Under the pieces are notes generated by a model. That model made no database searches. It saw only the letters and a list, made by a program, of their open reading frames with translations, and was not told the DNA's origin. DNA of 64,000 bases from Jonesia denitrificans DSM 20603 (lineage in GTDB: Bacteria > Actinomycetota > Actinomycetes > Actinomycetales > Cellulomonadaceae). The stretch is from assembly GCF_000024065.1 (NCBI RefSeq), contig NC_013174.1, positions 744,001-808,000 of the forward strand. The letters are read 5' to 3'. Below are positions 5,102-63,996 of the stretch, piece after piece (the stretch's first letter is position 1; each line of letters begins with the position of its first letter). Position numbers and translations under genes: made by a program.

Positions 5102-5995
5102 ATGACTGCCCAGATACTTGATGGGAAAGCGGCTGCTGCTCGGATGAAGACGCAGCTTGCGGAGCGGGTGGCCGTGCTTCGAACGAAGGGTGTCACGCCT
5201 GGGTTGGGCACTCTTCTTGTGGGAGATGACCCTGGTTCTACGTGGTACGTCGCTGGTAAGCATCGTGATTGTGCGGAAGTGGGGATCGCGTCCATTCGCG
5301 AGGATCTTCCCGCTGACGCGACACAGGATGACATCGTTGCGGCGATCACACGGCTGAATGAGGACCCAGCGTGCACCGGGTACATTGTTCAGTTGCCGTT
5401 GCCGCATGGGGTGGACACGAACGCTGTGTTGGAGCTGATCGATCCTGCGAAGGATGCTGATGGCCTGCACCCTATGAATCTGGGACGCCTGGTTCTGCGG
5501 GTGAATGAACCGGTGACCTCACCGCTGCCTTGCACACCTGCGGGCATTATTGCGTTGATTGAAAGCAATGGTGTGTCGCTTGAGGGGAAACATGTGGTGG
5601 TGGTTGGGCGCGGAACAACGGTGGGGCGCTCTATTGGTTTGTTGTTGACGCGTCGGGCGGTCAATGCAACTGTCACGTTGACTCACACCGGGACGAGGAA
5701 CCTTGCTGAGTTGCTGGCTCAGGCGGATGTCATTGTCGCGGCAGCCGGTGTGCCAGATATTGTCACGAAGGAACATGTGAAACCTGGGGCGATCCTCATC
5801 GATGTGGGGGTGTCACGCCGGGTGGATGAGGCTACAGGGAAGTCGATCGTGGTGGGTGATATTGCTGCCGATGCGCGTGATGTGGCTGCGTGGGTATCCC
5901 CGAACCCCGGTGGGGTGGGTCCGATGACTCGCGCGTTCTTGCTGGAAAATGTGGTGTCAACAGCGGAAAGACACGTGGCTTCCCAAGGCGTGTAG
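5102..5995 (+). CDS. folD: methylenetetrahydrofolate dehydrogenase / methenyltetrahydrofolate cyclohydrolase FolD
   Basis: Bifunctional NADP-dependent enzyme converting 5,10-methylene-THF to 10-formyl-THF. 297 residues. The catalytic Tyr/Lys region reads [10 protein letters not shown] (near residues 45-55), then [23 protein letters not shown], the dinucleotide loop [12 protein letters not shown] and the C-terminal signature NPGGVGPMT. It starts 12 bp after glyA with GAGGCGGAG as ribosome binding site, so glyA-folD is an operon. Product flow is serine to methylene-THF (GlyA) to formyl-THF (FolD), which PurU can then hydrolyse. Confidence 0.97.
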
Positions 5996-54743: not shown

Positions 54744-56486
54744 CTAGTTGATGTGGCACGAGGTGCCGTTGATGGTCATTGCATTCGGAACGGGGTTACT
54801 GCCGGAATGTGTCCCGGAGAAACCGATCTCAACAGATCCTCCTGGCGGGATAATGCCGTTCCATGCAGCGTTTGTCAGGGTTACTGACGACCCACTGCTC
54901 GTTGCGTTGGCAGACCACACATTGGTGATGGTTTGCCCCGCAGAGAAATCGAATGCCAATTCCCACGACTGTATGGGGGCATCCGATGTATTGGTGATGG
55001 TGAGGTTGGCGGTGAATCCAGATGCCCAATCATTTGTTGTGTAGGCAACCGTGCACGAACCGCCCGGTGACGGTTCGTCGGTCGGCTCATCGGTGGGATC
55101 AGGATCAGGGTCGGGTGTGGGGTCATCTGTTGGTTCGTCGGTCGGCTCATCGGTGGGATCAGGATCAGGGTCGGACGGTGAATCACCCGAGACGTCACTG
55201 AGGCTGATGCCCGTCGTGGAATTCGCCCCACCCAGGGGAACATCATGATCCAACGACACGAACTTACCGTTGTGGGACCACAAGGCAGGTTCCAGTAAGT
55301 CATACTTGGCTTCATCCCAGCTTGCCCAGTCGTACCCAAGTAATCCGCCTGTGTCACCGGAGTTGGGGTTCAGTACCCAGAATGTGTGGTGAAGTCGTTC
55401 ATCAACGATGAGGTCGCGGATAGCGTTCATCCACTTTTCGTTGGGTCCACCATCTAAGAAACCACCCCATTCACCAATGAGTAGCGGTGCAATGTTGTCC
55501 TGGTGGATGTACAGCCAGTTTGGCCCCCACACCTCGTCTTCTAAGGATTGACGATCCCAGTCATCCTCGAACCATGGTTGAGACGCAACAAGTGGCCCGT
55601 AATCGTGTGGTGAATACACGAGTTGGGCTTGGTGCTCGCCAAGGTCAACAGGGTGCTCTTTGACACCGCGAAGGTTGCCACCCCACCAGTAGTTGTCGTA
55701 GTCGTTCACGCCAGTTGAGGTCCAGTCGACTCCGTCTTTGGGGTAGATTTGGATCCCTTCCACGAGGATGAGCATGTTGGGGTTGTGGGTGAGAATCCGG
55801 TCAGCGGCCTGTTCCGCAAAAAACTTGAAGTTGTCGTGGTCTGTTGACGAATCCCACTTCGCGCGCTCGGCATCACCTTGCGAACCGTGAGGTTCGTTTT
55901 TCAGATCGGCGCCAATGATGGTGTCGTTGTTTTTGTACGTCTCTGCGACCCACTCCCACGCATTCAGAGCATCACCGGTCGTGATGTCACCTTTGTACCA
56001 CATGTTGTACACGTGACCGGAGTTATCTGCCTCAGCAGAGTGCACATCGATAATGACTTTCAGCCCGTACTTTTCGCACAAGTCGAGCCAATGGTTGAAG
56101 ATCTCAAGATTGTTCATCCCGGCGAGATCAGGGTTCGCGAACTCGTTGATGTTGGGGTTCTCCAATGGCGTTCCAGCACGCCATTCCAAGAGGAGTTCGG
56201 TGGAGACAGGAACACGGATGACATTCATACCGCGTTCTGCGACTTGGCGGGTTAGGGTCTCCAAGTTGGCGGACCAAAGACCGTGAAATACCCGTTCGGA
56301 GGCGTTAAATCCAAACCAGTTGACACCGGTGAGCCAGACCGGGTTGCCGGTGGAGTCAACGATCTGGTTGCCTGAAGTAGACAGCCAATCTTCCGTACTG
56401 GGGGCAGATTGGGCTGCGGGTGCACCCGTGGCAGCGAGTGCAGCTCCTAAAGCAAAAGCAAGGAAAGTTGTGCGCCGTGTTCTCAC
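54744..56486 (-). CDS. secreted GH5 endoglucanase with CBM2
   Basis: 580 residues. Signal peptide (about 1-28), GH5 barrel (about 30-435) with acid/base glutamate in GADLKNEPHG and nucleophile in LIGEWGGFLDGG. A DPTDEPTDEPT linker (about 440-480) and CBM2 (CTVAYTTNDWASGFTA ... INGTSC) follow. It cleaves internal cellulose bonds. The start is only 60 bp after the GH6 gene, a gap filled mostly by a stem-loop. It may therefore be transcribed partly from upstream. Confidence 0.94.
   Translation of the reverse strand: MRTRRTTFLAFALGAALAATGAPAAQSAPSTEDWLSTSGNQIVDSTGNPVWLTGVNWFGFNASERVFHGLWSANLETLTRQVAERGMNVIRVPVSTELLLEWRAGTPLENPNINEFANPDLAGMNNLEIFNHWLDLCEKYGLKVIIDVHSAEADNSGHVYNMWYKGDITTGDALNAWEWVAETYKNNDTIIGADLKNEPHGSQGDAERAKWDSSTDHDNFKFFAEQAADRILTHNPNMLILVEGIQIYPKDGVDWTSTGVNDYDNYWWGGNLRGVKEHPVDLGEHQAQLVYSPHDYGPLVASQPWFEDDWDRQSLEDEVWGPNWLYIHQDNIAPLLIGEWGGFLDGGPNEKWMNAIRDLIVDERLHHTFWVLNPNSGDTGGLLGYDWASWDEAKYDLLEPALWSHNGKFVSLDHDVPLGGANSTTGISLSDVSGDSPSDPDPDPTDEPTDEPTDDPTPDPDPDPTDEPTDEPSPGGSCTVAYTTNDWASGFTANLTITNTSDAPIQSWELAFDFSAGQTITNVWSANATSSGSSVTLTNAAWNGIIPPGGSVEIGFSGTHSGSNPVPNAMTINGTSCHIN
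55072..55174. repeat. 43 bp perfect direct repeat in the GH5 linker
   Basis: Identical 43 bp copies at 55072-55114 and 55132-55174 (60 bp period) coding the Pro/Asp/Glu/Thr linker. Confidence 0.9.
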
Positions 56487-56546: not shown

Positions 56547-58418
56547 TTAGGAACAGGTTGCGCCGTTCAGTGTGAAGCTGGTGGGTGCGGGGTTGTTCCC
56601 GTTGTGGGTTCCGTTGAAGCCGAACTCCACGGTTTGTCCTGCGTTAATGGTGGGGTTCCAGGCAGCGTTGGTGATGGTTGCTGTGGAACCTGTTGATGTG
56701 TTGGTTGCGGACCACAGGTTGGTGATCTGTTGACCGGCAGGGAAGGTGAACGCCAGGCTCCAGCCGTTAATGGGTTGGGTGGAGGTGTTCGTGATCTTCA
56801 CTGTTGCGGTGAAACCACTGTTCCAGTCGTTGGTGGTGTAAGTGACATCGCATGTGCCACCTTCACCTGGGTCGGTTGGGTCAGTGGGTTCTGGGTCCGG
56901 ATCGGTAGGATCGGTGGGTTCTGGGTCCGGGTCGGTTGGGTCAGGGTCCGGATCGGTAGGATCGGTGGGCTCTGGGTCCGGGTCCGTTGGCTCAGGATCA
57001 GGATCCACACCATCGGGGTCGATCACTGGGTAGGCGTTCGCAACGAGTTCTTGGAACTGCTCGGAGAACCACTTTCCGGACACAGGTGCGTTCGGCAAAG
57101 CGCCAGTGAGAAGTCCGTTGAGCTTAGGCGAGTTGAATGTGGGGTCGCACATCCGGTCGAAGCCTTTGCCCTCATCGTTGGGGATTTCGGAGGAGGAACC
57201 ATCTGATTCACCCGGTGGTTTCACCCACACGTAAGCGTCAAGGTGTGAGTTGGGGAAGTCAGTGGGGGCAGCTTGTGGGCGTTCCCCAATTCCTGCTCCT
57301 GCAGCGTTGCACCATGCGCCACGGTGGGTGCGTTGGTCCACTCGAGACTGGTCAACATAGGTGTTGAGGTCGGAGGAGGTGCTTGCCGCGGTGGGCCGGT
57401 CTGGGCCACCCCACCCGTTGCGGGAGGTATCAACGAGCATTCCGATGTCGGAGGGGAAACCCGCGGCGACGAGGCGACGGTACAGGTCAGCTGTCCAGTC
57501 TGCTTCGTCAAATGCGGTGTTCCACTCGTAGTAGTCCGAGGAACGGATGGGTTGTCCACCGACCTGCTTGCTTGGGTCGGGAAGGAACGGTTCGTTCAAC
57601 GGTGTGGTGTTCGCTGTGTTGGTGACGAACCCGTGGATGGAATCGAAGCCCTTGTTGGTCATTTGGGCAACTTCAGTAAAGGTTTGTACAGACCCTGTGG
57701 CGTTGTCTTCCCAACCGAGCCACCCGGAGTGGGCTGCATCCACGTAGTTGTACACCCCTTGGATGTCTGAAAGTTCAGACAGAGCGTAAGCGACACCCTC
57801 TTTGTAGTAAGGCTCCGCTTCCACACACTTGGGGTCGTGCATGTTGGTGGTGAGGTTCGGCAGTGAGTCAGGCTCGATCGTTGTGACGATCCGCAGGTCA
57901 CGGTATTTGGGCTCAGCGAGGATCTCGGTGATCGCGTCGATGTACTCTTCTTTGTACTTGCGAAGCCCCTCTGCCGTGGCTGGCAACTCTCCGTTGGAGG
58001 CGAGCGCGTAGCAGTCACGTCCTGGGAGGTTGTAGATCACGAGTTGCAAGACAATCGGGTCATTGCCTTGTTTTTGTTCTAACGCCTCATCGAGGTGGAA
58101 GCGAAGGCCCGGGCCGTCCACATTCCCTTCGATTGCTGAGGTACGGTCCATCCACACTGCTGTCGGTTCATCAGCAATTGCACGCATCTTCGCGGCGAGG
58201 GTTGGGTCTGATGACTGGACGGAGTCTGCTTCTTCGTTGACGTTGTCGCTCCAGTACGGGTTGACGTACCAGTCAGCTCCAACAAATGGGTTGTCGACGT
58301 TAGTTTCGGCGGCAACGGCTGGGGTGGTGAAAGCGGTCACTGCGAGTGGGGCCGCTAGCACCATTCCTGCGGTTGCGGCTGCGATATTCTTTCGCAGCGT
58401 CGTCATGCGAGGTGTCAC
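56547..58418 (-). CDS. secreted GH6 cellobiohydrolase with CBM2
   Basis: 623 residues. Signal peptide (about 1-37, ending AVAA), GH6 domain (about 45-475) with family signatures VTTIEPDSLPN and DAAHSGWLGW, and RGAWCN near the active site. A long PTDPDPEPTDPT linker and a CBM2 follow. Loop content and length resemble exo-acting actinobacterial GH6 enzymes rather than short endoglucanases. GTG 58418 has GGAGG 5 bases upstream; ATG 58406 is the alternative. Confidence 0.93.
   Translation of the reverse strand: MTPRMTTLRKNIAAATAGMVLAAPLAVTAFTTPAVAAETNVDNPFVGADWYVNPYWSDNVNEEADSVQSSDPTLAAKMRAIADEPTAVWMDRTSAIEGNVDGPGLRFHLDEALEQKQGNDPIVLQLVIYNLPGRDCYALASNGELPATAEGLRKYKEEYIDAITEILAEPKYRDLRIVTTIEPDSLPNLTTNMHDPKCVEAEPYYKEGVAYALSELSDIQGVYNYVDAAHSGWLGWEDNATGSVQTFTEVAQMTNKGFDSIHGFVTNTANTTPLNEPFLPDPSKQVGGQPIRSSDYYEWNTAFDEADWTADLYRRLVAAGFPSDIGMLVDTSRNGWGGPDRPTAASTSSDLNTYVDQSRVDQRTHRGAWCNAAGAGIGERPQAAPTDFPNSHLDAYVWVKPPGESDGSSSEIPNDEGKGFDRMCDPTFNSPKLNGLLTGALPNAPVSGKWFSEQFQELVANAYPVIDPDGVDPDPEPTDPDPEPTDPTDPDPDPTDPDPEPTDPTDPDPEPTDPTDPGEGGTCDVTYTTNDWNSGFTATVKITNTSTQPINGWSLAFTFPAGQQITNLWSATNTSTGSTATITNAAWNPTINAGQTVEFGFNGTHNGNNPAPTSFTLNGATCS
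56872..57005. repeat. imperfect tandem repeats in the GH6 linker
   Basis: Repeated 15-36 bp units coding PTDPDPEPTDPT. Same class as the GH74 linker. Confidence 0.75.
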
Positions 58419-58441
58419 GCAATCCTCCATGGTCAGGCTTG

Positions 58442-58535
58442 CCGGCACCCTCATTGGTGCCGGTGTGGCGAAGTCCGCCACATCCAGTACCCAACAACAC
58501 TCAGTGTGTGACCGAGAACACCTGAAAGGTTTAAG
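58442..58535 (-). promoter_or_regulatory. upstream region of the GH6 gene
   Basis: Holds a box CTTAAACCTTTC (58535-58524) like those of xgh74 and xyn10A, at about the same distance (106 bp) from the start, and an odd palindrome ACACTCAGTGT (58497-58507). A hairpin CCGGCACC/GGTGCCGG (58442-58463) follows in the leader. The -35 and -10 are weak. The box overlaps the lacI stop codon. Confidence 0.4.
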
Positions 58536-59595
58536 TATCAGAATTCCTTGGTGGAGCTATTGTTCCGCGCACAGACACTGGAGGTAGCGGGACGGTGATG
58601 TTACTGCTGCTCCCAGCGGACAAGAGGTCCATCAATGCGTGGCCTACATGTTCACCCAGTGCGGTGAAGGGTACGTCGATGCTTGTGAGCGATGGGGTCG
58701 CTAGTGTTGCTTGGGCTGAGGAACCAAGACAGATGAGCGAGAGATCCCAGGGGACATTGAGTGAGAGGCGGCGTGCGACATCCAAGGTGATGAGTGCAGT
58801 GTCATCTGTGTCTGTGACCAGTGCGGTGGGGCGTTGAGTCCCGGTGAGTAGGGCTCGAGCCGCAGCTGCTGAATCCTCAGGTGTCCGTGTGACGTGGGTG
58901 AGGAGACGTGCTCCGTGGCGAGCTGCGCTCACGCGTGCTGCTTGAGTCGTACGACTGACCGTGTCCCGGGTGGGGTCGCTGTGAAGAAAACCTACAGTGC
59001 GGTGACCGAGGTCGCACAAAAGGTCAACGGCTTGGCCTATGGCATGTGGTTCATCAACCCATACTGAGATGTGAGGAGAAGAGATTTGTGGATGCCCAAC
59101 AACGACAGCAGGGATATGCTCACGGGAGACGACGGCTAGGCGAGGATCATCGTGGATCACATCGCGCACAATGACTGCGTCGAACCGGCGTTCCAGCCAA
59201 CCGGTGTGATACATCGTGGCTGCCTGTTCTTCATCTGCAACTACTTTGAGCCATAGGGAGTGCTCATGTTTTTCCAGGGTGTGTTGGAGCCCAGCAAGGA
59301 AGTCCATGAAGTGCCCTGATCGGCTGGTGGAGCTTTCGCTGTGAATCAAGGCGAGTGCGATGGATCGTTCTGAGGTGCGCAGCGATCGCGCGGCGGCGGA
59401 TGGTCGCCATCCGTACTCATCGGCAATGCGTAACACGCGGTCACGGGTTGCCGGGGAGACACCGGGACGGCCATTGAGGGCATACGATACGACAGCGATT
59501 GACACACCAGCGGCTCGGGCTACATCCGTGATGGTTGGACGTTTGCGCGTTTGTGGCTTAGATTCGGGTGAAGTTTCGGGTGAGTTAGGTCTCAT
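58531..59595 (-). CDS. LacI family transcriptional regulator
   Basis: 354 residues. N-terminal helix-turn-helix with hinge (TITDVARAAGVSIAVVSYALNGRPGVSPATRDRVLRI, here given in parts: TITDVARAAGVS and SYALNGRPG), then a periplasmic-binding-protein-like sensor domain. It lies directly upstream of the GH6 gene on the same strand, so it probably represses the glycosidase genes and is released by a cello- or xylo-oligosaccharide. ATG 59595 is chosen; the long open frame upstream is antisense to the sensor gene. Confidence 0.9.
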   Translation of the reverse strand: MRPNSPETSPESKPQTRKRPTITDVARAAGVSIAVVSYALNGRPGVSPATRDRVLRIADEYGWRPSAAARSLRTSERSIALALIHSESSTSRSGHFMDFLAGLQHTLEKHEHSLWLKVVADEEQAATMYHTGWLERRFDAVIVRDVIHDDPRLAVVSREHIPAVVVGHPQISSPHISVWVDEPHAIGQAVDLLCDLGHRTVGFLHSDPTRDTVSRTTQAARVSAARHGARLLTHVTRTPEDSAAAARALLTGTQRPTALVTDTDDTALITLDVARRLSLNVPWDLSLICLGSSAQATLATPSLTSIDVPFTALGEHVGHALMDLLSAGSSSNITVPLPPVSVRGTIAPPRNSDT

Positions 59596-59679
59596 CACGG
59601 AACAAGCATGCGGGATTTGATCGCTCAATGCACATTCTGGGCGTGGGGTGGTCAACCCGCAGGTATCAAGGGGGAGAAA

Positions 59680-61938
59680 ATGGCAAGTGATATTGGCGCA
59701 TGTGGGGGACATGACCAAACAGCGACGTTTGGTGTGTATTCTCCAGTAGTTGGTGGATTCTATTTCGGGAAGACTCTCGCTGGGATCGCCCGCGTCCTTC
59801 GCGGGGCGGGCCACAACGTTGTGGCCGTGCAAACTTTTGCAGCTGATCTCGATCGAGGGCGATTTCCGGAGTCCGCAACAATAGACACGATCCCAGGCAG
59901 TGACACCTTTGACGGTTTCATTGTGGTCACTTCTGCACTGGATGCAACTGCATTGCGTGGGTTGTACGACACGGGGAAACCTGTCGTACTTGTTGGGGCA
60001 GCGCGCCAAGAGTTGCCAATCCCCACCGCAACTCCGGACAACGTGGGGGCGGTACGATCTGCGGTCGATCACCTGGTCAGTCACGGACACCGAGAAATCG
60101 GTTTTGTTGGAAACCTCCACCAGTTCGATGTGCGCGAACGGTATGCGGCATACCGTGAAGCGTTACGTAGTCATGGCATCACAGTCGATGATGCGTGGGT
60201 GTTTAAGGCACATGACAACCAAGAAACCGCTGGTGTGGTTGCCGGTCAGCATTTTATCCAGCGTGGACAGCCGACCACTGCCACTCTTGCGGCCACGGAC
60301 CGCAACGCGGTGGGGTTTGTGAAAGCATTACGTCAGGCGGGGTTGAGGCTACCCACGGAACACGCCGTTATCGGGTTTGACCGATCTGAATCGGGCGCGC
60401 GCCTTCGCCCACGGCTCACCACCATTGATCCGCACCATGACCGGGTGGGGGAGTTGGCTGCTCACCTGCTGTTGAAGCAGTTTGTTGGTGAGAGCGTGAC
60501 GGCTCGTGAGCATATTTCCGATGCGACTCTCATTACCCGGGAGTCGTGTGGGTGCGTGGAGGTGTTACCTGACCGAAGTACTGTGAGTCAGGACGCGGGG
60601 GAGTATTCGTCAGCTTCCGCCGACCTAGCACTCACTGCTCGGCATGTTTTTGCTGGTCCAGCGCACACAACGGGTGCGAACGCGTTGCATGTGGGCACAT
60701 GGACATCGGCGATGATGGAGATCATTACCGCAGCGACAACACGCGCTGTGATCCCAAATACAGCAGTATTAACGCGTGTCGCAGACGCAACGACAGCGTT
60801 AAATCCGCAACCAGAGGCACTCGAGGCGCTTTTGACGGTGCTCCGAGCAACGGAAGTCGAAGCGCGGTCGACGCTTGATGTGACATGTCGAGCACAACAA
60901 AACGCACTGACGGCAACAATGACCCGGCTGACTGCAGCTCTCACAAAGGGGTGTACCCGGGCACTGTTGAACCGTTCTGGCGCACTCGAACAGATGCTCG
61001 CCCACCAGTATGAAATTGATATTGCGTTGATGCGCTTTCATGTCTCAGATCCGCGAACCCTGAGCTGGTTACCGACCACGTTCCGTGGCGGCGCGGTTCT
61101 TGCGTTGTGGGAACGTGACGCACATGGGACCTCCACGGGGAAACTGGTTATTGCTGGTACCCGCGATGTGGGTTCCACTGGTGCTCGCCTGCTAGGTGAA
61201 TCGATGGCCGCAGCCGCGTTCCCCCCTAGCGTGGTGACCAAGACGGTGGGGAACTCTAAATCAGACATTCTTTTTGTTGTTCCCGTCACTTTTGCGGGGA
61301 GCGACTGGGGGTATCTCGCGGTGTCAGGATTGGCGGACACTCGGGCAACCAGCGCCCGTGACCGCTTCAATCATTGGGCGGCGATGTTGGCGGTTGCGCT
61401 GGATCACGAGCAAGCGCATCGGCAGTTAAGTGACGAAGCGGAATCCCTGCAACTGATGCTTGCCCGAAAAACGGAGGCAACAAGTCAACTCCTGGAAGCT
61501 GAAGAGCGATACGCCATTGCGGCAGCAGTCAACCAGGATGGGATGTGGGACTGGGATGTGATCACTGGGAAGGTGTACTACTCACCAAGTTGGCGCCAAA
61601 CAATGGGGTTGGCTGAAGGGGAAACGGCCTCGTCATTGGACACATGGACATCACGGGTCCACCCTGAAGATCGCCCCGCCATGCAGATGGCGATCGCTCA
61701 ACAACTTGCTGGACTAGATGAACCGTTCCATCTGTCACAGCGGGTCCGAGACGCTTCAGGGTGCTACCGGCACGTCGTGGTGCGAGGGTTAACGCTCGTC
61801 AATGATGCTGGTGTCCCCGCCCGTATTATCGGGGCGTTGACCGTTGTGCATCCCACCTTTGACGACGAGAACCGGAATGGGGGAGTCGAGCAGGACACGT
61901 TGGGTCGTGGAACCCAAAATGAATTTGCCGATCGGTGA
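59680..61938 (+). CDS. LacI-fold sensor with PAS domain, apparently lacking its output module
   Basis: 752 residues. An N-terminal sugar-binding LacI/PBP-like domain without helix-turn-helix (about 15-290, VYSPVVGGFYFGKTLAGI; IGFDRSESGARLRPRLTTIDPHHDRVGE) is followed by a helical/GAF-like middle (about 330-595) and a PAS domain (about 610-727, DGMWDWDVITGKVYYSPSW, VHPEDRP). Proteins of this build normally continue into GGDEF and often EAL domains; here the frame ends 25 residues after PAS, inside the opposing uspA gene. ATG 59680 has GGGGGAG upstream. Divergent from lacI (84 bp). It may bind the same sugars. Confidence 0.75.
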   Translation: MASDIGACGGHDQTATFGVYSPVVGGFYFGKTLAGIARVLRGAGHNVVAVQTFAADLDRGRFPESATIDTIPGSDTFDGFIVVTSALDATALRGLYDTGKPVVLVGAARQELPIPTATPDNVGAVRSAVDHLVSHGHREIGFVGNLHQFDVRERYAAYREALRSHGITVDDAWVFKAHDNQETAGVVAGQHFIQRGQPTTATLAATDRNAVGFVKALRQAGLRLPTEHAVIGFDRSESGARLRPRLTTIDPHHDRVGELAAHLLLKQFVGESVTAREHISDATLITRESCGCVEVLPDRSTVSQDAGEYSSASADLALTARHVFAGPAHTTGANALHVGTWTSAMMEIITAATTRAVIPNTAVLTRVADATTALNPQPEALEALLTVLRATEVEARSTLDVTCRAQQNALTATMTRLTAALTKGCTRALLNRSGALEQMLAHQYEIDIALMRFHVSDPRTLSWLPTTFRGGAVLALWERDAHGTSTGKLVIAGTRDVGSTGARLLGESMAAAAFPPSVVTKTVGNSKSDILFVVPVTFAGSDWGYLAVSGLADTRATSARDRFNHWAAMLAVALDHEQAHRQLSDEAESLQLMLARKTEATSQLLEAEERYAIAAAVNQDGMWDWDVITGKVYYSPSWRQTMGLAEGETASSLDTWTSRVHPEDRPAMQMAIAQQLAGLDEPFHLSQRVRDASGCYRHVVVRGLTLVNDAGVPARIIGALTVVHPTFDDENRNGGVEQDTLGRGTQNEFADR

Positions 61939-62220
61939 TCGTTTCTTGGACCCAATGACAATCATGGACGCGTCGATCCGTTCGGCGTGATCCAAGATGG
62001 CGTCAGCGACGTCCAGGGAGTCGGAACGGAATGCCACGTCAACGCCCGTCTTTGCTTGTGAGATCAGATTGGCCAGGTGAGAAGGCAGGGGCGCGTCATC
62101 GGGGGCTGGGGTGAGGACGAGGACCACAACGGTGTCCTGCCGGCGTTGTGCTTCGGAAACGGCAGCGAAAAACGCAGCTTCCCCTTGGGTGGTGTCGTTG
62201 TACGCAACCAGGACTGGCAC
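61789..62220 (-). CDS. universal stress protein
   Basis: 143 residues, one USP domain ending at about residue 120 (MIVIGSKKRSPIGKFILGSTTQ is the ATP loop region; PIPVLVV the last strand). The last 23 residues (GGMHNGQRPDNTGGD...) go beyond the domain and are read antisense to the PAS coding region of the opposing gene, overlapping it by 150 bases. It starts 18 bp after the hydrolase gene, hence an operon. Confidence 0.82.
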   Translation of the reverse strand: MPVLVAYNDTTQGEAAFFAAVSEAQRRQDTVVVLVLTPAPDDAPLPSHLANLISQAKTGVDVAFRSDSLDVADAILDHAERIDASMIVIGSKKRSPIGKFILGSTTQRVLLDSPIPVLVVKGGMHNGQRPDNTGGDTSIIDER

Positions 62221-62238: not shown

Positions 62239-63996
62239 TTACCCCGCGTCAAGGACGAGGTCTCGTAAATGGTCAAGGTCTTGGTCAGACCACTGGTCAG
62301 CAGCGGTGATAGCGGCCCACGCATCGACGTATTCACCATGGTACTGGTGCCCGTGACCGGTGGGGACGTCACCAGACAATGCCATGTCGACGGTGACTTG
62401 CCAGAATGTGACAGCAGGTAGCCACACCATGTCGACGCGGCGGTCGACCCCGGCTGGTTCGGACAGCCAAGGGGGCGGACTCCACAGCAGATCTGGTGAC
62501 CACCACACAACAGCATCGGAGGCGTGTTGCAGATACACGATGCGTGGGTTTGACCAGTCCTGGCCAAGATCCCACAGGCTGTGTGAGGAGCGAGGCGTGG
62601 AGGAAAACCTCACGGTACGACCATCGTCAATGATGGGGGTGATCATGGGGGAGGGTGGGTCGCGATGTTCGGTCAGGACCTCCCAGGTTGTGGTGAAACT
62701 GGGGGTGCCGACAAAGAGGGCGCCATCTGCACGTTGAGTCATATCTTGGATGCCGGAGAAGGCTCCTTGCATTCCGTAGGATCCCAGCGAGAGACCGGCA
62801 ATGTATAGTGCCGGCCGCGTGTCTTCGGGTTGCGCACTCCAAGCAGAGTAGACAGCCTCAAACAGGGCGCGCCCGGCAGCTGGTGGCGTGTCCCGGTCGG
62901 ACACGAAGGACACCCAACTGGGCAGGTAGGAATATTGCATTGACGCGATGGCGGTGTCACCACCGTGAAGATATTCGAAGGTGTCAGCCATGGCTGGTTG
63001 AACCCAGCCGGTGCCGGTCGATGTGACAACAAGCAGCGCAGAGCGGTCCCAAGCGTTGGTGCGGTCAAGTTCTGCAACCACATCAGCGGCAGTGTCCTCG
63101 AGATGTCGAGCGTCATCCAGGCCCGCATACACGCGAATGGGGTCGTGGACTTGTGCACGGTCAAAGGCGTCTACCTGGTCGGCTAATACCATGAGGTCCT
63201 CACGTGTTGGACCAGAGGCGACGAACGCACGTCCTTGGCGCCCGAGGCCATCCCATGAGTTGAGCGAGGAGGGTGACCCTGAACGCTCAGGCGAGGTCGG
63301 TTGTGTCAGTCCAGCAGGAATTTCTGTGTCCACGCTGGAATATAGGTCGTTCATGGCGCGCAGAGAGAATGAGACAACAGTGCCATTTAAAACAAAAATT
63401 GTCCCGATAGCCACGATGATAGTGGAAGCGAGAACTGCGGCACGCCGGGGGATCCAGCGCGATAGTAGACGCGCAACCCACCGGGCCAGTCTTCGTAAAC
63501 CTCGAGCTGTATACAGGAGGGCAAGGGAAAGAGTCAGCGCGATAAGCAGTTGCGCGGTGACGTGTTCTGGGCCATCTGCGCTCATGCCAAACAAGCGCCT
63601 CAACTCAGTTTGCCAATGAGCCCCCAACGCCATAAACACCGGGACAAGAACGATTGCAGCGAGCGTGAGGACACGCCATAACAGGATGGAGGTGGAGTGC
63701 CGCCACGCGTGACGGAACCCTAGCCAGCGCATGAACCACCCCACGGTTGCGCCAATTGCGTACCCAGCCATGATGGACAGCCCTGAAGTCATGCCTTGGA
63801 AGTACCAGGGTCGCGGGATCAACGAAGGTGCTAACGAAGCGCAAAAGAACGCCAACGCCAAGACGAGACCGGTTGCAGACAGGGTGTTGCGGAATCGGAT
63901 GAAGAATGTCGTGATGCGGCGTCGCCATGGGACCGAGGGAGTCCGCGCCGAAACAGGCTCGTCCGCTGGTGGCGCATCGGGGGTCATGTTTGTCAC
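62239..63996 (-). CDS. alpha/beta-hydrolase membrane protein (Abhydrolase_9 type)
   Basis: 585 residues. About four to five N-terminal membrane helices (about 30-210, LVLALAFFCASLAPSLIPRP first), then an alpha/beta-hydrolase domain with nucleophile elbow IAGLSLGSYGMQ (about residue 400). The membrane plus catalytic arrangement matches the actinobacterial Abhydrolase_9 family. Activity unknown, perhaps an esterase facing the membrane. The ATG lies four bases from the window edge; ATG 63987 is an alternative. Upstream control is not visible. Confidence 0.85.
   Translation of the reverse strand: MTNMTPDAPPADEPVSARTPSVPWRRRITTFFIRFRNTLSATGLVLALAFFCASLAPSLIPRPWYFQGMTSGLSIMAGYAIGATVGWFMRWLGFRHAWRHSTSILLWRVLTLAAIVLVPVFMALGAHWQTELRRLFGMSADGPEHVTAQLLIALTLSLALLYTARGLRRLARWVARLLSRWIPRRAAVLASTIIVAIGTIFVLNGTVVSFSLRAMNDLYSSVDTEIPAGLTQPTSPERSGSPSSLNSWDGLGRQGRAFVASGPTREDLMVLADQVDAFDRAQVHDPIRVYAGLDDARHLEDTAADVVAELDRTNAWDRSALLVVTSTGTGWVQPAMADTFEYLHGGDTAIASMQYSYLPSWVSFVSDRDTPPAAGRALFEAVYSAWSAQPEDTRPALYIAGLSLGSYGMQGAFSGIQDMTQRADGALFVGTPSFTTTWEVLTEHRDPPSPMITPIIDDGRTVRFSSTPRSSHSLWDLGQDWSNPRIVYLQHASDAVVWWSPDLLWSPPPWLSEPAGVDRRVDMVWLPAVTFWQVTVDMALSGDVPTGHGHQYHGEYVDAWAAITAADQWSDQDLDHLRDLVLDAG

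Follow-up and report, generated by a model that had tools for sequence, protein, structure and literature searches.

A long convergent overlap between a sugar-sensor gene and a universal stress protein gene in Jonesia as the probable scar of an ancestral deletion

The junction between a sensor gene (59680-61938, + strand) and a universal stress protein gene (usp; 61789-62220, - strand) in Jonesia denitrificans DSM 20603 is most likely a scar that became fixed in the Jonesia lineage after one ancestral deletion, or a few in succession, with passive tails on both genes and a sensor that would exert its output by binding, a reading to which we give a probability of about 0.8. Positions refer to the window, that is, the whole stretch of 64,000 nucleotides that was analysed. 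The two genes converge, their 3' parts overlapping by 150 bp in phase 123:321, with the stop codon of the sensor frame at 61936-61938 and that of the USP frame at 61789-61791. The original prediction placed the ends of the PAS and USP domains together at about 61860, and the Pfam matches indeed end within a few codons of this position. The PAS_3 match (E 6.6e-13) ends at residue 743 (approximately 61836), the last PAS strand in the AlphaFold model (residues 737-746) ends at 61845, and the Usp match ends at residue 121, homologues elsewhere ending at residue 122-127. The domains meet at approximately 61846-61857, where, according to the relatives and the substitutions, sensor homology stops, USP homology starts and the selected frame switches (at about 61852). 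From here each frame continues antisense inside the other gene, for 27 codons in the sensor (TFDDENRNGGVEQDTLGRGTQNEFADR and the stop, 61855-61938, + strand, read from the complement of usp) and for 20 codons in usp (MHNGQRPDNTGGDTSIIDER, 61789-61851, - strand), close to the 25 or so codons that had been noted for each. For stop-free runs of that phase on the antisense strand of the sensor the median is close to 20 codons and the maximum 161, and the lengths of the two tails are ordinary for the phase, as chance gives. What is non-random is that the folds abut and that both native ends are lost, not how long the tails are.

Both frames are genuine genes that share their 3' ends, with domain matches on either side (PF13377/PF08447 in the sensor, PF00582 in usp) and low dN/dS. 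The sensor consists of a LacI-type sugar-binding domain, a helical and GAF-like region, a coiled coil and a PAS domain, as read from Pfam, the structural model and the alignment with the sister species. Its start is likely the ATG at 59680, which is preceded by GGGGGAG, rather than the ATG at 59608 to which the open frame extends back, given the good ribosome-binding site and the matching start in the sister species. The ligand-binding domain (Peripla_BP_3, residues 40-316 of the 776-aa frame, 59725-60555, + strand) has no helix-turn-helix (HTH). It is followed by the helical and alpha/beta region (residues 336-580, 60613-61347, + strand), which has no Pfam match and is called GAF-like from the order of its elements in the AlphaFold model, judged by eye. 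The PAS domain spans residues 644-746 (61537-61845, + strand; PAS_3 match at 656-743). The product of usp (143 aa) belongs to the universal stress protein family with 79.2 bits against a curated cut-off of 24 (PF00582, E 5.9e-22), and homologue matches and the substitution pattern place its conserved core at residues 1-123 (61852-62220, - strand). The gene immediately upstream of usp, in the same orientation, is of the Abhydrolase_9 family (62239-63996, - strand; PF10081). Between the two Jonesia species dN/dS was 0.06 in the PAS domain of the sensor and 0.12 in the USP core; in the sensor outside PAS, where synonymous sites are saturated, pN was 0.14-0.17. The sensor core is under strong purifying selection. 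A weak hairpin with a T-rich tail lies at 61929-61941, exactly on the sensor stop codon; in the sister species the T run at the sensor stop is longer and the stem poorer. As an intrinsic terminator at the overlap this single weak candidate was rejected, as the count for the region, five against 4.2 expected, is what chance gives.

The relatives tell what is missing at the junction. Direct orthologues were defined across the family by an identity of 42% or more, paralogues being approximately 33% identical, and most of the orthologues extend 147-186 aa past PAS. A short class, which stops 13-52 residues after PAS, includes Jonesia, one Sanguibacter genome (G234), four Oerskovia, Promicromonospora, a further genus (g15) and genome G027. 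A tree of the sensor part up to PAS requires at least five changes between the long and short classes, and by this sequence comparison related genera lost a degenerate GGDEF domain on at least five occasions. In the long orthologues this domain has decayed, although Pfam still matches it in some (43.7 and 52.1 bits). The GGDEF motif and the DLDxFK metal site are kept in none of the 44 orthologue C-terminal domains and in every true paralogue (the row P_L095 in this count is a frame-broken orthologue, not a paralogue). No EAL domain was found among the direct orthologues sampled, and the Pfam search gave no GGDEF or EAL match in the J. denitrificans sensor. The paralogues extend by a further 440 residues or so, in which GGDEF and EAL are both intact, and actinobacterial homologues with GGDEF/EAL after PAS, anticipated by the original prediction, do exist in this sense, but among direct orthologues there is a degenerate GGDEF at most. 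The claim that a deletion removed a GGDEF/EAL part from this sensor does not hold, as the architecture behind it is that of the paralogues. Judged from the sequences, the domain lost by Jonesia was already dead, no enzyme was removed, and EAL is not part of the subfamily as sampled. A sensor without enzymatic output is probably right, but the output was gone before the deletion. On the USP side the outgroup proteins end in LVIKAAD*, IRATR*, IKAQR*, IKAKH* or IKAGE*, with the stop following the core by 2-5 codons. Jonesia lacks both native ends, its two cores being joined, and the outgroups keep the missing sequence on both sides. In two genomes the sensor orthologue is split into two overlapping frames, namely G162 (L095:2247-5653) and Cellulosimicrobium funkei U11 (L134:3585-6399), by a frameshift in either the gene or the draft sequence. 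At the end of contig L096 (approximately 5255-5317) the sensor frame turns into CLLYTSDAADDK, which we take to be a translated Illumina adapter, the draft contig probably being contaminated.

It is likely that in the ancestor the sensor still ended in a degenerate GGDEF domain and lay tail to tail with usp. A deletion would have removed this domain, the spacer and both native ends, so that near 61852-61857 the final codon of PAS came to adjoin the final codon of the USP core. With neither stop left, ribosomes on each gene would continue antisense through the other one until they met the first stop that happened to lie in frame, giving the tails of 27 and 20 codons. The sensor would retain a working ligand-binding and PAS core. 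We infer one deletion rather than several steps, the two being indistinguishable because the locus as it stood just before the deletion has not survived. The original proposal was a deletion that brought two 3' ends together, and the missing native ends and joined cores agree with it when compared with the outgroups, but the event is as old as the genus and not specific to the strain. A stepwise origin, in which the degenerate GGDEF was truncated earlier, the genes drifted into contact, both stops were lost and the frames ran on, is possible but doubtful. Convergent overlaps are documented to arise by loss of stop codons (PMC2174442), domain loss at the end of PAS recurs (Oerskovia, Promicromonospora, g15, G027), and G234 has the form of an intermediate, with a sensor shortened approximately 12 codons after PAS, an intact usp stop and a 4-bp overlap of the CTAG type. 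However, Jonesia has no spacer or linker, the USP core codons lie within about 12 bases of the end of PAS and both native ends are gone, which requires a deletion that cut into both of them at least once.

The Sanguibacter loci bear on a further alternative, namely that the junctions of Jonesia and G234 go back to the same event, inherited or moved between lineages and then trimmed further. The sensor and usp are convergent in all three Sanguibacter genomes compared. Two of them (G230 and G233) have a full-length sensor and a block of 7-9 kb with molybdenum-cofactor genes and modABC before usp (L103:4970-12015 and L104:5103-13701), the functions of which were read from the gene sequences rather than from a family search. 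MoaC of the block is 80% identical between these two genomes and about 50% identical to MoaC elsewhere in other Sanguibacter, which suggests, at the level of sequence, that the block was inserted (or is a replacement) rather than being an ancestral spacer. The weak resemblance of the G234 tail to the end of a HemD-like gene of the block was considered as a fusion and rejected, the tail aligning better with the linker after PAS. A clade of Jonesia and G234 is compatible with the sensor tree (p-AU 0.59, with slightly better likelihood), where the branch of the Jonesia sensor is long. In contrast, the rpoB tree rejects this clade (p-AU 2.7e-8) and groups Jonesia with the genomes G013 and G016. 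The junctions also differ, as in G234 the first part of the linker and an intact usp stop are still present. G013 and G016, which represent the genera nearest to Jonesia in the rpoB tree, have no sensor and have usp and the abhydrolase gene in the same order as Jonesia. A shared event seems improbable to us, and the two shortenings look independent because rpoB places Jonesia with G013 and G016 and not with G234.

Comparison with a close relative had been put forward in the original prediction, and a second Jonesia species (G001) does carry the same junction, with the sensor stop at the identical codon and a sensor 78% identical over the protein. The junction predates the split of the two species because the arrangement is shared. 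An assembly or sequencing artefact, for which nothing speaks beyond the odd arrangement, is hardly conceivable: the genome of the type strain is closed in a single contig of 2,749,646 bp (PMC3035236), the second species was sequenced independently, and its identical junction excludes an assembly error. The sister overlap is 102 bp, so the overlap is found in more than one genome, and the usp stop of the sister comes 16 codons earlier, after GGLNEG, by one change from a glutamine codon of J. denitrificans that is silent in the sensor frame. Among the 16 differences between the species at 61789-61851, 12 fall at position 3 and 4 at position 1 of the sensor codons, and at 61852-61935 the 14 differences fall at position 3 (10) or position 1 (4) of the USP codons. 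Selection acts on the sensor frame as far as about 61852 and on the USP frame after that point, because the third-position bias switches there (Fisher p 0.026 on the small counts of 30 changes in the overlap, and 0.007 if the stretch of PAS before it is included). Of the 12 USP-silent changes in the sensor tail, two are silent in the sensor and ten alter its residue, the chance expectation being 5:60 (60 of 65 non-stop changes). The mean pLDDT of the AlphaFold sensor model is 79.3, and residues 750-776, with pLDDT below 50, are modelled as disordered. That the antisense tails are functional extensions under selection is very improbable. Conservation of the sensor tail together with its stop is 63% in the sister, but selection on usp explains this, as the changes lie at third positions of USP codons and are silent there; nothing outside the genus corresponds to the sensor tail, and the sister lacks the USP tail. 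A homologue that stops at this same position and has a conserved tail had been named beforehand as evidence against a deletion, and the sister is such a homologue, but its tail is conserved as a consequence of selection acting on usp. Both tails are passive, unselected passengers, as seen from the frame switch, the disorder of the sensor tail and the loss of the USP tail in the sister.

The deletion reading leaves the sensor itself to be explained. The folds closest to its ligand-binding domain are CcpA, the LacI ancestor and CelR with cellobiose (5ysz, 23% identity), and the best 50 PDB matches to the sensor model all concern the sugar-binding domain. It is not a LacI/GalR transcription factor, the HTH being missing from it and present in its divergent neighbour. 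This neighbour, a LacI-family regulator with HTH and sugar-binding domain (58531-59595, - strand; PF00356, PF13377), is divergent to the sensor at every locus read, and a GH6 cellulase gene lies beyond it wherever the contig reaches. The order of GH6 cellulase, LacI regulator and sensor (56547-61938 in the window) is conserved in Cellulomonas, Sanguibacter, Oerskovia, Promicromonospora and others. For the GH5 and GH6 cellulases of J. denitrificans the tags Jden_0734 and Jden_0735 are listed (PMC3377646), which by gene order would belong to the gene at 54744-56486 and to the one on the - strand at 56547-58481, respectively. CelR fold likeness together with the cellulase neighbourhood would make cellobiose a candidate ligand, and no CelR-type operator (TGGGANCGNTCCCA, two mismatches or fewer) was found near the divergent promoter, the total for the window being below chance. 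Searches with PF00990 (GGDEF) and PF00563 (EAL) gave no match in either whole Jonesia genome (G000 and G001) and were positive in control genomes as well as in G234 and G013. As judged from the GGDEF and EAL domains, synthesis of c-di-GMP and its EAL-type breakdown appear to have been lost in the genus. The sensor probably acts by binding other proteins, which is the most likely action because GGDEF catalysis was already lost in the orthologues and neither GGDEF nor EAL is detectable in Jonesia. The binding would be sugar dependent, plausibly to the divergent LacI regulator of the cellulase genes, and a protein-binding role in cellulase regulation would be the simplest reading. More tentatively, and with somewhat less than even odds, the sensor may be a LacI-like sugar receptor descended from a c-di-GMP enzyme and now an output-less partner of the cellulase regulator, having lost catalysis first and shed the dead domain in at least five lineages, and kept under selection in a genus without detectable c-di-GMP enzymes.

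The junction is a clean and datable example of how deletions make long convergent overlaps with misleading conservation. The sensor family illustrates a signalling receptor that outlives its enzymatic domain, which is relevant to cellulose-degrading actinobacteria, where the sensing of sugar for cellulases is still partly open. The cellulase neighbourhood and the lack of detectable GGDEF and EAL domains in Jonesia are more interesting than the junction, which is real but largely ordinary, a well-documented case of a type already known. In the survey of convergent overlaps that documents stop-codon loss (PMC2174442), 123:321 is one of three ordinary phases and accounts for 33% of the convergent overlaps longer than 4 bp, the modal length being 4 bp. 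The Jonesia pair resembles the pairs made by stop-codon loss in its tail-to-tail arrangement, its phase and the run-on to the first chance stop, whereas its overlap of 150 bp is far longer than the mode, both native ends are lost and the folded domains abut with next to nothing separating them. As in deletion-born gene fusions (PMC12803068), a deletion would have joined gene fragments and the new coding sequence has persisted, but the Jonesia genes are opposite in orientation, resulting in antisense tails only and not in a two-part chimaeric protein. With the GGDEF-EAL paralogues that carry LacI-type and PAS domains (1130-1240 aa) the sensor shares the order of periplasmic-binding-type (PBP) domain, middle region and PAS at about 33% identity; the paralogues keep GGDEF and EAL intact, in contrast to the degenerate GGDEF, or none, of the sensor orthologues. 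A lost GGDEF motif in a protein that is kept is also known from CdgI of Escherichia coli and FimX (PMC5635695, PMC8846402), which act by binding and retain the dead domain, whereas in Jonesia it has been shed and no protein with GGDEF or EAL is detectable. In the aml cluster of Actinoplanes (PMC6828939) a sugar-hydrolase gene, a LacI regulator and a c-di-GMP-type protein likewise adjoin, although the hydrolase there is a maltase and not a cellulase, the GGDEF-EAL protein is membrane-anchored and no truncation is reported.
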